Positions 9,873-60,473 of a stretch of DNA of 64,000 nucleotides are shown in pieces (position 1 is the first letter of the stretch; each line of letters opens with the position of its first letter). Below the pieces are notes generated by a model. The model did no database searches. It was given only the letters and a program-made list of their open reading frames with translations, and was not told where the DNA came from. The translations under genes and the position numbers were made by a program. This DNA comes from Acidobacteria bacterium RIFCSPLOWO2_12_FULL_68_19 (lineage in GTDB: Bacteria; Acidobacteriota; Vicinamibacteria; Vicinamibacterales; UBA2999): the NCBI GenBank assembly GCA_001767525.1, contig MELF01000049.1, positions 1-64,000 on the forward strand. The letters are read 5' to 3'.

Positions 9873-12245
9873 TCACCGCCCGCCAATCGTGAATCGGGCG
9901 CCGGCTTCGATCGCCCGCGGCAGCCCAGGAAATCCGAGGGCCCCTGCGTACGCCTCGTCCAGCACGTTGTCAACCCGCACGAACAGCGTGAGCCCGCCGC
10001 CGAGGCGATAGTCGCCGCCAATCCCGACCACGGCGTACCCCGGGTTGACGGTGATGTCCACGGACCGTCCTCCCTCCACCGCCGATCCTGGCAGCGACAC
10101 CGTCGAGAGACCGAGAAACGCCGCATCATGGCGCTCGCCGACGACTCGTGCATCGAGGTGCACCGCCGCGCGTCCGGCGACATAGGTGGCCTGCACCGAG
10201 CCGGTGTGGCGCGGACGCCGCAGCAGCGGCTGTCCAGGCTGGAACTGCTCGCTCGTGCTGAGGAACGCGACCACCTCGGTGTCGGCGAACGTGTACGTCG
10301 CGCCGAGGGTGAGGCCGCGGATCGGGCGCTGCAGCGCCGCCTCGAGCTCCCAGCCGTGCGCTGTGGACCCGTCGATGTTCAGGAAGTCCGGCCGGCCGTC
10401 GAGACCGAACCCGGTGGCGCGAAAGGCCACCTGGTCGGTGTAACGATTGTCGAAGAACGTCCCGCGCGCCATCCAGCGCTGGCTGTCGAAGGTGAGCTCG
10501 GCGCCGGCGTCGAAGGTCCGGGCGCGCTCCGGGTGCAGGTCCGGGTTGCCGTCGGTGAACGCCGACCCGAACAGCTCGCCGAAGAGCGGGTTCTTGATGC
10601 CGCGTCCGATGTTCGCGAACACCTTCACCGACGAGAGCGCCGCGCTCCGGAACGGCCGAAGGAAGGCGCCGGCCGACGCCTTGGGACTCACTTCGGTCCC
10701 GTAGCGGGAGTTGTCGTCCACGCGGCCGCCGACGGTCAGGAACCAGCGGTCGCGCCAGGTGAAGCGTTGCTGCAGGAAGTAGGCGTGACTTGCCACGCGG
10801 AACCCTTCCGCCAGCGGATTGCGCTCGCGCTCGTACTCGTACCCCCCGCTCAAGATGTGCGCGCCGCGCCACCGCGCGTCGAGCTGGTACCTGAATGCGG
10901 GCCGCCGCAGCGCCACCTCGCTCGCAAACGGAAAATCGGCGACGCCGAACGGCGTCCAGGCGAGGAATTGCCCGGCCGGCAGCGCCTGCCCCCCCGTCCG
11001 CAGCGCGTCGAACGTCGCGCCATCCACGAGCCGGACCAGTCTCGGACTGTCGGGGAAGATCGCTCCCGGGCGTCCGGTGAGCACGGCAAACACAGTGAAC
11101 GGCGGATCGCCGACCCGATCCGCCGACAGCCGGCTCGCCCGAACGTAGCTGACCGTCGCCGTGTGCGAGACCGAGTCGCCGAGGCGCTCGGTCGCATCGA
11201 GGTGCCAGGAGAGGTCCTCCGTGTCGGCCGCCGTTCCCGTATCGCGCGAGCCGAGAGCAATCGGCCCGACGCCGCGGCCCCGCGCTTCGCCGTAGCGCAC
11301 GCCGCTGCGCACCGACACACGATCGCCCACGACCGCGCCAATCCCGCCGGTCACCGTCGTCTGATCGAACCGGTCGTCCTCCGGCAGCAGATCGCTGAAT
11401 GCCCCGTCCGTCCCCCGATAGGCGACGCCGAGCTGGTAGTCGACGCGGGTGCGGGCGCCTCCGAGCAGATGAAGGTCGGCCCGGCGCGTCGTGAAGCTCC
11501 CGGCCCCCACCGAACCGGTCAACTGGGGCGGGTCGCCCGCCGCCGCGCGCCGAGTGAAGATCTGGACGACCGAGCCAATCGCGTCGGACCCGTACAGCGC
11601 CGATTGCGCCCCGCGCACCACCTCGATCCGTTCGATCTCGGCGGCGGAGATCCGGCTGAAGTCGAACTGGCCGCCGTTGGCATTGACGCGTACGCCGTCG
11701 ACGAGCACGTGGTTGTAGTCGGACTCGCCGCCCCGCGCGAAGAGCGACGCCACGGCGCCCTCGCGTCCCGTCGATTCCACGCTCGCCCCGGGCACGCGGC
11801 GCAGGAGGTCGGCGAGCTGGGAGACGCCGGCCGCGGCAATCGCCTCCCGCGTGATCACCGTGGTCGACTCGGGGGCCGCCGCGCGGCTCCCCGCCACGCG
11901 CGAGGCGGTCACGACGAGCGAGTCGCCGAACGCGGGGATCTGCAGCGCGAAGTCGTGCACGACATCGGCGGTCGGCGCCAGGTCGGCGGTCGCGTCGGCG
12001 AACCCGGCCAGCCGCGCCCGGACGACGTAGCGTCCGCCCGACGGCAGCACGAGGCGGTATCGGCCATCGGCTCCGCTGGTCGCCGTCGCGACCGGCCGGC
12101 CGGCCGTTGCCGCCTCGATGACGACATCGGCCGCCACGGCTCCGGATGGATCCGTGACCTGGCCGCTCATCGTGATCGACTGCTGGGCCGCCGCCGACAC
12201 TGCCGTCAGCGCGACCGCGATCGACACGAGGACATGTACGAACAT
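9873..12245 (-). CDS. TonB-dependent outer-membrane receptor, BtuB-like
   Basis: A 790-residue protein: signal peptide (MFVHVLVSIAVALTAVSAAAQ), a carboxypeptidase-regulatory-like domain (about 25-115), a plug domain (about 120-240; LADLLRRVPGASV, NHVLVDGVRVN, IERIEVVRGAQSALYGSDAIG) and a 22-strand barrel ending in ARFTIGGR. It should import a chelate across the outer membrane with TonB energy; the plug is most like cobalamin receptors, but the substrate is not proven and I find no cobalamin riboswitch upstream. AGGAGGG eight bases before the ATG at 12245 fixes the start; the open frame extends a further 61 codons without support. Confidence 0.85.
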   Translation of the reverse strand: MFVHVLVSIAVALTAVSAAAQQSITMSGQVTDPSGAVAADVVIEAATAGRPVATATSGADGRYRLVLPSGGRYVVRARLAGFADATADLAPTADVVHDFALQIPAFGDSLVVTASRVAGSRAAAPESTTVITREAIAAAGVSQLADLLRRVPGASVESTGREGAVASLFARGGESDYNHVLVDGVRVNANGGQFDFSRISAAEIERIEVVRGAQSALYGSDAIGSVVQIFTRRAAAGDPPQLTGSVGAGSFTTRRADLHLLGGARTRVDYQLGVAYRGTDGAFSDLLPEDDRFDQTTVTGGIGAVVGDRVSVRSGVRYGEARGRGVGPIALGSRDTGTAADTEDLSWHLDATERLGDSVSHTATVSYVRASRLSADRVGDPPFTVFAVLTGRPGAIFPDSPRLVRLVDGATFDALRTGGQALPAGQFLAWTPFGVADFPFASEVALRRPAFRYQLDARWRGAHILSGGYEYERERNPLAEGFRVASHAYFLQQRFTWRDRWFLTVGGRVDDNSRYGTEVSPKASAGAFLRPFRSAALSSVKVFANIGRGIKNPLFGELFGSAFTDGNPDLHPERARTFDAGAELTFDSQRWMARGTFFDNRYTDQVAFRATGFGLDGRPDFLNIDGSTAHGWELEAALQRPIRGLTLGATYTFADTEVVAFLSTSEQFQPGQPLLRRPRHTGSVQATYVAGRAAVHLDARVVGERHDAAFLGLSTVSLPGSAVEGGRSVDITVNPGYAVVGIGGDYRLGGGLTLFVRVDNVLDEAYAGALGFPGLPRAIEAGARFTIGGR

Positions 12246-12446
12246 GCGCAATCCCTCCTGCAACGCCGTGACCGTCCCATTGTAGGAAGCACGACGGCCG
12301 GCCGCACCTGAAGAAATCCCCAGAACCCGCGGCGTCGCGGTTTCTGACAAATAATTCAGCAACTGTTCAGAATGGACGGCCCCGCCCCGACTGAGTAGAC
12401 TGGCGTGCGGGACGAGACCTCGCCCCATCTCATGAAGGGGACCGCG

Positions 12447-18204: not shown

Positions 18205-18211
18205 CTCAGTC

Positions 18212-18260
18212 GGTAGCCGGTAGGTGGTAGCCGGTAGGCGGTAGCCGGTAGGCGGTTGGT
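18212..18260 (+). repeat. GGTAGNN heptamer array after the ferredoxin gene
   Basis: Seven consecutive 7-base units: GGTAGCC, GGTAGGT, GGTAGCC, GGTAGGC, GGTAGCC, GGTAGGC and GGTTGGT. Related arrays lie after ahcY (37344-37390) and glnA (60330-60473). Confidence 0.9.
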
Positions 18261-29340: not shown

Positions 29341-30054
29341 CTACATTGTACCCGCAGGCTCCCGCAGGTCGGCGTCGAGGACCCACGGCGCCGGCGGTGC
29401 CGGCTGGCGGACGAGGCGCTCGACGTGCCGCAGGAACTCGGCCCGCGGAATCTCCCGCGCGCCGAGCGAGGACAGGTGTGCGGTGGCCAGCTGGCAGTCG
29501 ACGAGCTCGAAGCCCCAGCGTTCCAGTTGGCGTACGAGGAACACGAGCGCCAGCTTCGAGCCGTCGCGCCAGCGGCTGAACATCGACTCGCCGAAGAACA
29601 TCTGGCCGAGCGCCACACCGTACAGACCGCCGGCGAGCGCGCCGTGCACCCATACCTCAATGGAATGCGCATGGCCCAGGACGGCCAGACGGGTGTAGGC
29701 CTCGATCATCGCCGGCGTGATCCAGGTGCCGTGGCGGCCCGCCCGTGGCGCGGCGCAGGCGCGCACGACGTCGCCGAACGCCGTGTCGAGCGTCACCGTG
29801 TACGGGCCGGCGCGGATGCGTCGAGCGAGCGAGCGCGAGACGTGCAGCTCCCGCAGCCAGAGCACCATGCGCGGATCGGGACTCCACCAGAGGAGCGGCT
29901 CGCCTTCGCCCGACCACGGGAAGATGCCCCGGGCGTACGCGTCGAGCAGGCGCGGAACCGAGAGGTCGCCTCCGGCGGCGAGCAGGCCGTTCGGATCGCG
30001 CAGCGCCGCCGCCACCGGCGGGAACGCGTCACGAGGGCCGAGCCAGGAGATCAT
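29341..30054 (-). CDS. aat: leucyl/phenylalanyl-tRNA-protein transferase
   Basis: A 237-residue enzyme that adds Leu or Phe from aminoacyl-tRNA to N-terminal Arg or Lys of proteins, creating ClpS ligands. The family pattern is clear: PNGLLAAGGDLSVPRLLDAYARGIFPW, then LLWWSPDPRMVL, WVHGALAGGLYGVALGQMFFGESMFS and ELVDCQLATAHLSSLGAREIPRAEF. It is first in the aat-clpS-clpA-pdxH operon. No Shine-Dalgarno is evident before the ATG, and a long inverted repeat array begins 15 bases upstream. Confidence 0.95.
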   Translation of the reverse strand: MISWLGPRDAFPPVAAALRDPNGLLAAGGDLSVPRLLDAYARGIFPWSGEGEPLLWWSPDPRMVLWLRELHVSRSLARRIRAGPYTVTLDTAFGDVVRACAAPRAGRHGTWITPAMIEAYTRLAVLGHAHSIEVWVHGALAGGLYGVALGQMFFGESMFSRWRDGSKLALVFLVRQLERWGFELVDCQLATAHLSSLGAREIPRAEFLRHVERLVRQPAPPAPWVLDADLREPAGTM

Positions 30055-30069
30055 GGACGATCACGAATG

Positions 30070-30391
30070 GTGCGACGGTGCGGGGTGCGACGGTGCGACG
30101 GTGCGTCCGACGGTGCGACGGTGCGACGGTGCAGGGTGCCGTGGCGCGACGGTGCAGGGTGCCGTGGCGCGACGGTGCAGGGATGCCGTGGGTCGCGAAG
30201 ATGCCAAGAACGGTCCGGCGTGCGCCCTGCGCCAACGATCACAGCCTCGCACTATCGCACCCTCGCACCCTCGCACCCTCGCACCCTCGCACCCTCGCAC
30301 CCTCGCACCCTCCGACGCACCCTCCGACGCACCCTCGCACCCTCGCACCATCGGACGCACCGTCGCACCGTCGCACCCCGCACCATCGCAC
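30070..30391. repeat. inverted octamer arrays in the aat / peptidase divergent region
   Basis: The 453-base gap between aat and the plus-strand peptidase gene is mostly repeats. Left: GTGCGACG octamers (30070-30190). Right: CGCACCCT octamers (about 30256-30391). The outer arms 30070-30130 and 30331-30391 are inverted copies matching at 57 of 61 positions, so the DNA or RNA can form a very long hairpin. The left arm starts 15 bases before the aat start codon. Apart from the peptidase -10 at 30495-30500 I see no other feature in the gap. Confidence 0.9.
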
Positions 30392-30507
30392 TGTCTCCCA
30401 CAGAGTACCTGCACCTCGGCCACCTGGCGAACGCGATCTTCGCCTGGGGCGTCGCTCGCGTGCGGCGGACGTTCGCGCTTCCGAGCTGATCGGGTACCAT
30501 TGGCCCC

Positions 30508-31620
30508 GTGACTCGGCTCGGCGCCGCGCTCGTTGCGGCTCTCGTGTGGACCGCACCCGCCTCCGCGCAGGGCATTCCCGGTCCGCCGGCGTCTCGGGCG
30601 GCGCAGGGGGGATGGCAGGCGCTGCGCGACGGCCGTCACCAGGTGGCGGCCGCCGCCTTCGCCGTGGCGATCGACGCCGAGCCGCGCGATCCGTCGTCGC
30701 ACCTGGGCGCCGGCCTCGCCGCGTTCCTGCTGGGCCAGCCGACCGCCGCGCGCCATGCACTCGAGCGCGCCCTCACGCTGGCGCCGGGACTCACGCCGGC
30801 CTCGCTGCTGCTCGGCGACATCTTGTTCCGCGGCAGCGACATCGACGGCGCGCTGCGCGTGTGGGAGGAGGCGCTGCAGCACGCGCCGGACGACCGGACG
30901 CTTCAGGCGCGGATCGAACGGCTCCGGCGCGAGGCGGAGCTGCACGGCAGCTACTACACCTCGCACGGCGCGCGGTTCACGGTGCTCTTCGAGGGCCCGG
31001 CCGACGAAGCGCTGGCCGCCCGGGCGCTCGAGATTCTCGAAGCCGCGTATTGGCGCGCGAGCACGGCCCTTGCCGCGTACCCGGAGCAGATCATCACTGT
31101 GATCCTCTACACGGCAGACCAGTTCCGCGACATCACGCGCTCGCCGCAGTGGACGGCCGGCGCCTACGACGGCCGCATCCGCGTGCCGGTGCGGGGCGCC
31201 TCCCCGGAGTCGCAGGAGCTCGAGCGGGTGCTCGTCCACGAGTTCACCCACGCCCTCGTCCAGGCGGTGGCGCCGCGCGGCGTTCCCGTCTGGCTGCACG
31301 AAGGGCTGGCGGTCACCTTCGAGCCCGGCGGGAGCGCGTGGGCGGAGGGCCAGCTCGCCGGCTCGACCTCACGGCTGCCGCTCGCGCGGCTGACCGGCAG
31401 CTTTGCCTCGCTCTCGGCGGCCGACGCCCGCCTGGCCTACGCGCAGAGCGCCGCGATCGTGACGGCGCTCGTCGACCGTGGCGGCGCCGCCGCCGTCGGC
31501 GCGGTGCTCCAGGACATTGCACGCGGGGACGCTCTTGCCGTAGCCTTTGAACGCCACTTCTTCATGCCCTACGCCGACTTTCTCGCCGCCCTCGAAACCT
31601 CTGTTGACCTTGTGAGATAG
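30508..31620 (+). CDS. secreted peptidase-MA-like gluzincin with TPR segment
   Basis: A 370-residue protein with a signal peptide (to ASAQG), TPR-like helices (about 35-145; two A..AFAVAIDAEPRDPSSHLG-type repeats) and a C-terminal metalloprotease-like domain with HEFTHAL (HExxH) near residue 248, followed by VPVWLHEGLAV that supplies the next acidic ligand. This is the peptidase-MA-like arrangement common in Acidobacteria. TACCAT (30495-30500) lies seven bases before the GTG start and there is no Shine-Dalgarno, so the mRNA is probably leaderless. Substrate unknown. Confidence 0.78.
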   Translation: MTRLGAALVAALVWTAPASAQGIPGPPASRAAQGGWQALRDGRHQVAAAAFAVAIDAEPRDPSSHLGAGLAAFLLGQPTAARHALERALTLAPGLTPASLLLGDILFRGSDIDGALRVWEEALQHAPDDRTLQARIERLRREAELHGSYYTSHGARFTVLFEGPADEALAARALEILEAAYWRASTALAAYPEQIITVILYTADQFRDITRSPQWTAGAYDGRIRVPVRGASPESQELERVLVHEFTHALVQAVAPRGVPVWLHEGLAVTFEPGGSAWAEGQLAGSTSRLPLARLTGSFASLSAADARLAYAQSAAIVTALVDRGGAAAVGAVLQDIARGDALAVAFERHFFMPYADFLAALETSVDLVR

Positions 31621-37343: not shown

Positions 37344-37386
37344 GCTACCAGCTACCGGCTACCGGCTACCAGCTACCGGCTACCGG

Positions 37387-37390
<4 letters not shown>
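37344..37390 (-). repeat. GCTACCR heptamer array at the end of ahcY
   Basis: Six full units GCTACCA or GCTACCG (37344-37385) plus GCTAG. The ahcY stop codon TAG (37389-37387 on the minus strand) is made by the last, partial unit. Read on the minus strand the unit is YGGTAGC, the same family as the arrays after the ferredoxin and glnA genes. Confidence 0.9.
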
Positions 37391-58891: not shown

Positions 58892-60331
58892 ATGACGCCG
58901 GACGATTTTCCGAAGAACGCCAAAGACTTCTTTGCATACGCCAAGAAACACCAGGCGGAGATGGTGGACCTGAAGTTCGTCGACATGCTCGGGAGCTGGC
59001 AGCACTGTTCGTTCCCCGTCGACACGCTGGACGAGGGCACGTTCGAGGAAGGCCTCGGCTTCGACGGTTCGTCGATTCGCGGCTGGATGGGCATCCACGA
59101 GTCGGACATGATGGCCGTTCCCGATCCGACGACCGCACGACTGGATCCGTTCTTCGCCAGGCCGACCGTCAGCGTGCTCGCCAACGTCGTCGACCCCGTC
59201 ACGCGCAAGGACTTCTCCCGCGACCCGCGGCACGTCGCACGCAAGGCGGAGGAACACCTCCGGCAGTCGGGTCTCGCCGACACGTGCTTCATCGGGCCCG
59301 AGCCGGAGTTCTTCATCTTCGACGAGGTGCGGTACGAACAGAACCAGCACCGCGGCTACTACGAGATCGACTCGGTCGAGGGTGCGTGGAACACCGCGCG
59401 GATCGAGGAACCGAACCTCGGCTACAAACCGAGCTTCAAGGGGGGCTATTTCCCCGTGAGTCCGACCGACACCTTCCACGACCTGCGCGGCGAGATGGTC
59501 TACGAGATGCGCAAGATCGGCATCATCGTCGAGGCGCACCACCACGAGGTCGCGACGGCCGGTCAGTCCGAGATCGACATGAAGTTCCAGCCGCTCGTGA
59601 AGATGGCCGACCAGTTCATGTGGTACAAGTACATCTGCAAGAACGTCGCGAAGCGCCACGGCAAGACGGTCACCTTCATGCCGAAGCCGATCTTCGAGGA
59701 CAACGGCAGCGGCATGCACTCGCACACCTCGCTCTGGAAGGACGGCAAGCCGCTGTTCGCCGGTGACGGCTACGCCGGTCTGAGCCAGCTCGGACTCTGG
59801 GCGGCCGGCGGCCTGCTCACGCACGCGCCGGCCATCCTGGCATTCGCCGCCCCGACGACCAACTCGTACCGCCGTCTGGTACCCGGCTTCGAGGCGCCGG
59901 TCAACCTGGCGCTGTCGGCCCGGAATCGGTCGGCGGCGATCCGCATCCCGATGTATTCGAAGAGCCCGAAGGCGAAGCGGCTCGAGTTCCGCTGCCCGGA
60001 TCCGAGCTGCAACGGCTATCTCGCGTGGTCGGCCATGCTGATGGCGATGATCGATGGAATCCAGAACAAGATCGATCCCGGCAAGCCGCTCGACCGCGAC
60101 ATCTACGAGATGACCCGGCACGAGATGAAGGAGATGGGGATCCGCACGACCCCGGGCTCGCTCGAGGAAGCCGTCACCGCGCTCGAGGCGGATCACGAGT
60201 TCCTCAAGCGTGGAGGCGTCTTCACGGAGGATCTCATCCAGACGTGGATCGACTGGAAGCGATCGAAGGAACTCGATCCGATTCGGCTCCGGCCGCATCC
60301 GCACGAGTTCTCGCTCTATTACGACAACTAG
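58892..60331 (+). CDS. glnA: glutamine synthetase type I
   Basis: A 479-residue GSI. Landmarks: [65 protein letters not shown], and [32 protein letters not shown]-like arginine binding segment. The Tyr in DRDIYEMT sits where the adenylylated tyrosine lies in GSI-beta enzymes, so regulation by covalent modification is possible. GAGGAG is placed six bases before the ATG. Its TAG stop is the first triplet of the heptamer array that follows. It lies 155 bases after metH. Confidence 0.95.
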
Positions 60332-60473
60332 GTGGTAGGTGGTAGCCGGTAGGTGGTAGCTGGTAGCCGGTAGGTGGTAGGTGGTGGCAGTTCCGGGTTC
60401 CCGGTTCGTGCCGCCGGCCACCGGCCACCGGCCTACCGGCTACCACCTACCGGCTACCGGCTACCGGCTACCG
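60330..60473. repeat. inverted GGTGGTA/GCCGGTA heptamer arrays after glnA
   Basis: From the glnA stop to 60390 run heptamers GGTGGTA, GCCGGTA and GCTGGTA; from about 60412 to 60473 run the complementary units TACCGGC and TACCACC. The two halves can pair as a large hairpin with the 20-base middle as loop. Same family as the arrays after the ferredoxin and ahcY genes. Confidence 0.9.

Follow-up and report, generated by a model that had tools for sequence, protein, structure and literature searches.

Inverted octamer arrays between aat and tpr

The window, i.e., the whole 64,000-nt stretch of DNA analyzed here from an acidobacterial source genome (G000), carries the divergent genes aat and tpr, which are 453 bp apart and enclose two inverted arrays of octamers (Table 1). 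The arms at 30070-30130 and 30331-30391 are identical at 57 of 61 positions, they are built of GGTGCGAN and NTCGCACC octamers according to TRF, and the left one lies close to the aat start (the first GGTGCG is 14 nt from the aat ATG), all of which agrees with an earlier note on this DNA. A repeat search extended the arms to 63 nt (30070-30132 and 30329-30391; 94% complementary, 196 nt apart), and TRF delimited a period-8 array GGTGCGAC at 30069-30178, a period-8 array CCTCGCAC at 30245-30391 and a 23-nt tandem at 30123-30191. This inner part of the left arm consists of three 23-nt repeats with 97% matches, which suggests a recent secondary amplification.

Table 1. Genes, array features and gene remnant in the window.
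Feature	Position	Strand	Basis
Single arm, heptamer family GGTAGCC	18211..18256	+	TRF
aat, leucyl/phenylalanyl-tRNA-protein transferase	29341..30054	-	PF03588
Left arm, GGTGCGAN octamers followed by three 23-nt repeats	30069..30191	+	repeat search, TRF
Conserved 12-mer GGTGCGTCCGAC in the left arm, behind four GGTGCG units	30100..30111	+	
Inter-arm spacer, without IVP gene	30192..30244	.	
Right arm, TCGCACCN octamers (left-arm unit in reverse complement)	30245..30391	+	
Right-arm copy of the conserved 12-mer, reading GGTGCGTCCGAT on the - strand	30350..30361	-	
gluQRS remnant, directly after the right arm, from ~codon 9	30394..30489	+	17/22 residues as in the G015 GluQRS-like protein
tpr, TPR / Peptidase_MA_2 protein gene, divergent to aat	30508..31620	+	
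Single arm, heptamer family (GCTACCG on the + strand)	37344..37389	-	TRF
Inverted heptamer pair: G-rich arm 60329-60385, C-rich arm 60414-60473	60329..60473	.	

The RNA fold of 30055-30400 reached -241 kcal/mol on the + strand (z -15.5) and -271.3 kcal/mol on the - strand (z -13.9), and on either strand 0 of 100 shuffles folded as well. A very stable hairpin or cruciform, as proposed earlier, is thus predicted by folding, but its proposed role as a local regulator of the aat (N-degron) operon is not supported, since octamer arrays occur at no fewer than 33 other places and the aat-tpr junction is free of arrays in two relatives. In these two relatives, aat is separated from its divergent neighbor tpr by ~40 bp (G023) and ~110 bp (G018), and neither stretch contains an array; moreover, no array was found in the 900 bp before aat of the congener. 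Rfam gave no matches in 29900-30600, and a promoter and terminator scan of 29900-30700 found none, with none expected by chance either.

The remnant behind the right arm corresponds to the N-terminal part of gluQRS (the HMM signal of the remnant alone is weak, E 0.0024), and the window element occupies the expected start of that gene. A GluQRS-like ORF is located between aat and tpr in G015. One array copy would have landed at the gluQRS start, with only a stretch of gluQRS being left. Before gluQRS, in the position that the arrays take in the window, G015 has a different, ATCGATGATC-like repetitive stretch (L095:2205-2360).

Two dispersed array families in the source genome

The pattern GCACCNTCGCACCNTCGCACC, which comprises three octamer units, matched 161 times in the 4.21-Mb source genome and its reversed control not once. 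Regions were fetched round the 100 of these 161 matches that were listed and round the matches of another octamer search, so that few of the octamer sites on later contigs are covered, and in these regions octamer arrays stand at 33 or more places outside the window. Among the matches listed, 50 arms were collected (window included), of which 28 have no partner within 700 bp, and all 11 arm pairs within 700 bp have GGTGCG first and CGCACC second, the opposite order never being met. Likewise among the matches listed, 44 of the 50 arms contain the 12-mer GGTGCGTCCGA itself or a close variant, and exactly four octamers lie outside the 12-mer in 24 of these 44, which is its most frequent distance from the outer end; the 12-mer at this distance was found in other genera too. 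With this arm order, this 12-mer and this outer-end distance, the family looks like the product of copying from one template whose ends are defined, and not of independent slippage. Moreover, arms are no more similar within a pair than between pairs (11 pairs), which fits copying of arms from a family template. Homogenization of arms within pairs was considered and rejected: the own right arm ranks between 0 and 10 of 11 (0 being best) and is the best match in one pair only.

Across the genomes searched, the octamer pattern was present in 14 of 79, the source genome included (13 of 78 relatives), with three matches in the congener. Within the printed flanks of array copies, no target-site duplication was recognized by eye. 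The search for an autonomous element between arms yielded two candidates that were dismissed: the ORFs between distant arms on contig C179 of G023 read as ordinary enzymes, and the copy on contig C4 of G000 (L014:2530-3040) holds only a fragment, which by its motif reads as integrase-core transposase-like. On contig C13, ACCACAGAGACACCGAGG-like stretches were observed close to octamer arms and to the IVP gene of the octamer type (L117; L019:6250-7150, 11600-12400), and one array plus ~200 nt beside it is tandemly repeated; both suggest nested or successive repeat elements on this contig.

Arrays are also found within a coding frame. In a gene on contig C8 that we named by reading as a sugar-nucleotidyltransferase, the frame runs through an octamer arm, and the gap between two conserved blocks measures 96 nt in G000 versus 15-18 nt in eight relatives. 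Compared with these eight, the extra length amounts to ~81 nt in G000 and to ~27 nt in G003, whose gap of 45 nt holds a shorter octamer array; the gap is 54 nt in G007, with no evident array, and 93 nt in G044 (L215), where a CCCGACT heptamer array lies nearby, in frame. The octamers of G000 and the CCCGACT units of G044 at this site indicate that different array families entered one gene. Upstream of a gene that reads as murG-like, G000 has eight GGTGCG and eight CGCACC units, the congener eight and none. The earlier idea that array length could vary is borne out insofar as it differs between species at these two shared sites. The associated reading of the aat arrays in terms of phase variation is not supported, the arrays being a genome-wide family whose length was compared between species only.

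A sister family of heptamers has three sites in the window (Table 1), and its pattern GGCTACC matched 220 times in G000 at up to two mismatches, with no match of the control. At 60329-60331, a heptamer array opens on the TAG stop codon of an ORF (58892-60331) that reads as glutamine synthetase-like. The unit GGTAGCC occurs 101 times in G000 and 48 times in G001, where it flanks their IVP genes (L115 and L122, respectively), and at most 11 times in each of 40 other genomes; the reversed control gave 0 in G000 and G001 and at most 2 elsewhere.

Most IVP genes examined lie between inverted arrays

On contig C13 of the source genome, a 23S_rRNA_IVP gene (PF05635, E 6.7e-24; TIGR02436) is located between octamer arms. 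PF05635 is a four-helix bundle family, and all four such genes of G000, on contigs C3, C10 and C13, lie between inverted short tandem arrays of four different units: GGTAGCC (C3), GTTGTCA (C10), GGTGCGAN (C13) and GGTTCGG (C13). GGTAGCC and GGTGCGAN are the units of the two dispersed families that are represented in the window. In ~300 kb of G000, GTTGTCA and GGTTCGG had 4 and 3 matches versus 186 and 170 for the units of these families (reversed control 0-1), a contrast that is biased because these ~300 kb had been selected for their proximity to octamer and heptamer arrays.

PF05635 had 145 matches in 28 of 42 genomes, and 93 of these loci, chosen mainly by score, were examined as a set of 73 (of which one was omitted because its flank was short) and a further 20. 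Each locus was scored by the best inverted match between 400 nt on either side of the gene, a measure that captures inverted repeats and not period as such. A score of at least 33 was reached by 59 of 72 IVP loci, versus 44 of 1440 between-genome swaps of left and right flanks and 5 of 202 swaps among IVP genes of one genome. The further loci were mostly weaker, and 14 of the 20 were positive; 13 of the 72 and 6 of the 20 remained below the threshold. As a control, one of 28 aat loci was above 31 (28 of 30 loci, two being left out for short flanks; own-pair scores only, the swaps of this control being distorted, probably because homologous flanks run in opposite directions, and hence unused).

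A clear period was seen in 45 of the 61 positive IVP loci (7 in 38, 9 in 4, 8 in 2 and 10 in 1), and at a few IVP loci the units are longer or the inverted repeats are plain. The left arm is richer in G than in C in 50 of the 61 array-positive loci and richer in C in 10. Protein identity and array similarity were correlated (Mantel r 0.29, 0 of 2000 permutations; 0.285 without L122). L115 and L122, which encode 86% identical IVPs and have the same heptamer, share a common flank and are thus syntenic. Gene and arms might have descended together, which would link unit to protein without recognition. In an alignment of 69 IVPs (L117 numbering), E48 is invariant, and Q34, S41, N45, G49, S68 and E71 are conserved in 64-68 sequences, which argues for a functional site and not for the fold alone. 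The octamer-type IVP had a sole match in the PDB, 2gsc (XCC0516). The Xanthomonas S23p is described, in the part of the source available, as a homopentamer of four-helix bundles (PMC4990558), and the IVP is referred to as functionally uncharacterized in the accessible text of PMC11270868.

Distribution of the octamer-type IVP and of other units

Relatives of the octamer-type IVP of G000 (68-77% identical) were found in four other genera, i.e., in G010, G015, G004 (partial) and G013 (partial), all with GGTGCGA/TCGCACC-like units on at least one side, which are degenerate in G013 and in G015 were seen on the right only. The octamer-type IVP genes of G010 and G004 have, by reading, the same left neighbor; between the G000 locus and the flanks of G010, no match was found outside gene and arrays. 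Octamer counts of 161 in G000, 14 in G015, 11 in G004 and 6 in G010 track the presence of a close octamer-type IVP, a relation that is suggestive only, as G013 has a close IVP and no exact match, and G027 (10), G003 (7) and G018 (6) have octamer arrays without a close IVP. AGTAGGC, the unit flanking the IVP gene L127 of G005, occurs 215 times in G005 and at most 14 times in each of 41 other genomes. All three units tested are commonest in genomes whose IVP gene they flank.

IVP relatives were also detected in 36 plasmid records, of which 34 bear cyanobacterial names, and in none of 50,697 phage records. Among the plasmid loci fetched, 12 of 16 scored above the 95% point of the swaps, including loci of Gemmatirosa and Azospirillum, and their array units include TAGGGAG, GGGAAAA and CAGGTGA. 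On three cyanobacterial plasmids (L238, L239 and L240) the IVP genes lie amid CRISPR genes, namely cas6 and cas4 in two cases and cas10/Cmr2 with a Cmr3-family gene in one.

Proposed explanation and alternatives

On balance, we regard it as somewhat more probable than not that the arrays in the window represent a mobile element linked to the IVP, which is dispersed and armed with repeats and of which they are a non-autonomous copy without the gene. The gene-bearing form is likely a 23S_rRNA_IVP gene with an array on either side, both arrays being built of one short unit (mostly 7-9 nt) and inverted relative to each other. Against this reading stand the 28 unpaired arms, the target-site duplication that was not recognized by eye, the IVP loci below the threshold, the 10 loci with more C than G in the left arm, the octamer arrays in genomes without a close IVP, the two reverse-transcriptase matches of G000, the lack of IVP matches in phages and the fact that no activity of the IVP is known. 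We infer that the IVP drives the mobility of the arrays: an IVP oligomer would recognize its own arrays when these form a hairpin or cruciform, and would help to copy them to new sites, in cis as well as in trans, a role modeled by analogy on that of RAYT acting on REP sequences. In a broader and more tentative form, for which we see a somewhat less than even chance, IVP/S23 proteins might be mobility factors of widespread selfish elements that end in inverted arrays of a protein-specific unit, and rRNA intervening sequences, cyanobacterial STRRs, the GGGAATC arrays of Xanthomonas and the window arrays might represent gene-bearing and gene-less forms of one class. The link between IVP genes and arrays provides a testable partner both for the short heptamer and octamer arrays of bacterial genomes, which had no known source, and for the uncharacterized IVP. 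If correct, it defines selfish DNA of a class that molds intergenic regions, inserts into genes and fragments assemblies.

The placement and orientation of the arrays might instead point to regulation, with the IVP being an RNA-binding regulator and the arrays its binding sites on mRNAs of a post-transcriptional regulon, where RNase III would cut the hairpins and stability or translation would be adjusted, the spread of the arrays being selected or incidental. Arrays indeed adjoin start and stop codons, as at aat and at 60329-60331, and the mostly fixed G-rich-first order of the octamer pairs and of the 50 of 61 IVP loci fits a strand-specific function. Moreover, RNase III cuts the Coxiella intervening sequence (IVS) (PMC4990558), and a translational role has been suggested for TAACTGA arrays (PMC4679880), as far as the available parts of these papers go. 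However, one arm lies inside a coding frame and the arrays are patchily distributed among the relatives (13 of 78), and we consider a regulon unlikely. It is still less probable that the strong hairpin predicted 14 nt from aat is a cis-acting control of the aat operon with phase-like length variation, the idea of the earlier note: the arrays recur in at least 33 other places and are absent from the junction of two relatives and from the 900 bp before aat of the congener, which leaves this reading with very little probability.

Differences in array length between species at one site, together with the strain-to-strain differences in heptameric repeat number of Coxiella reported in the accessible portion of PMC4990558, would be expected if arrays were born in place, through slippage during replication and template switching at hairpins, and their link to the IVP were incidental. 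We consider such an origin quite improbable, since a common 12-mer stands mostly at one distance from the outer end, other genera included, pair-mate arms resemble each other no more than they resemble arms of other pairs, and the IVP link far exceeds that in the swaps. Equally doubtful in our view is a MITE nature of the elements, with a classical transposase behind them and the IVP as a passenger. The octamer arms do show the terminal inverted repeats with a conserved end by which MITEs are defined, and the transposase-like fragment lies between the arms of the L014 copy; against this, IVP genes are tied to arrays of many different units, among loci that were chosen by their IVP genes.

Comparison with known systems

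The element resembles the IVS of 23S rRNA genes in that a PF05635 protein is encoded between complementary ends, in the gene-bearing relatives, the window copy being without such a gene. In contrast to the IVS, which lies inside rRNA genes, the window copy lies between aat and the TPR gene, the gene-bearing copies were found in chromosomes and plasmids outside rRNA genes as far as seen, and the gene-less copies are dispersed. The IVS is excised from its transcript by RNase III; for the window copy, a hairpin is predicted. The IVS of Coxiella burnetii contains tandem heptameric GACAGAT repeats, in two or three sets depending on the strain, before the S23p ORF, and its origin from a mobile element has been discussed with reference to Ralph and McClelland (1993) in the part of the article available (PMC4990558). 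Except for these heptamers, the accessible portions of the open-licence literature state no link between IVP genes and arrays.

STRR heptanucleotide arrays are known from heterocystous cyanobacteria. STRR-like arrays are short, dispersed, mostly intergenic tandem arrays with a 7-nt unit; the arrays of G000 are dispersed, with a unit of 8 nt in the octamer family and of 7 nt in the sister family. Arrays of GGGAATC or GGGGA(C/T)T in Xanthomonas and Nostoc are described, in the available text, as G-rich, mostly intergenic and located near ORF ends, with 186 GGGAATC arrays in Xcc, two arrays converging in 70 cases; the authors see in general no association with mobile elements, and the terms S23, intervening and four-helix do not occur in the text (PMC4692102). 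The same terms do not occur in a study on the TAACTGA arrays of Beggiatoaceae, which reports that these heptamers stand mostly just before start codons and are patchy across phyla, and which considers a possible mobile protein that binds the repeats but identifies none (PMC4679880). Unlike the inverted arrays described here, the TAACTGA arrays are, according to that study, direct repeats, with one being indirect.

Homology to PF05635 has been suggested for Avd of diversity-generating retroelements, in the consulted part of PMC10053308. The IVP of L115 scored 45.1 bits on the NCBIfam Avd model, below the cut-off of 80. Reverse-transcriptase (RT) matches were found in 17 of 42 genomes, versus 28 of 42 for the IVP, and IVP-rich genomes such as G002, G025 and G044 have no RT match, so that a diversity-generating retroelement is not favored as the general mechanism. 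G000 itself has two RT matches, on contigs C25 and C5, its IVP genes being located on C3, C10 and C13, and because of these two matches another engine is possible in this genome.

In the REP/BIME and RAYT system, a gene is flanked by repeats, and the same repeats are dispersed as inverted pairs without the gene. Both features occur here, namely dispersed gene-less inverted pairs and a gene flanked by the same repeat. However, the flanked gene encodes a four-helix bundle of PF05635 / TIGR02436 and not a Y1 (IS200-like) transposase, and the ends of the element are tandem arrays.
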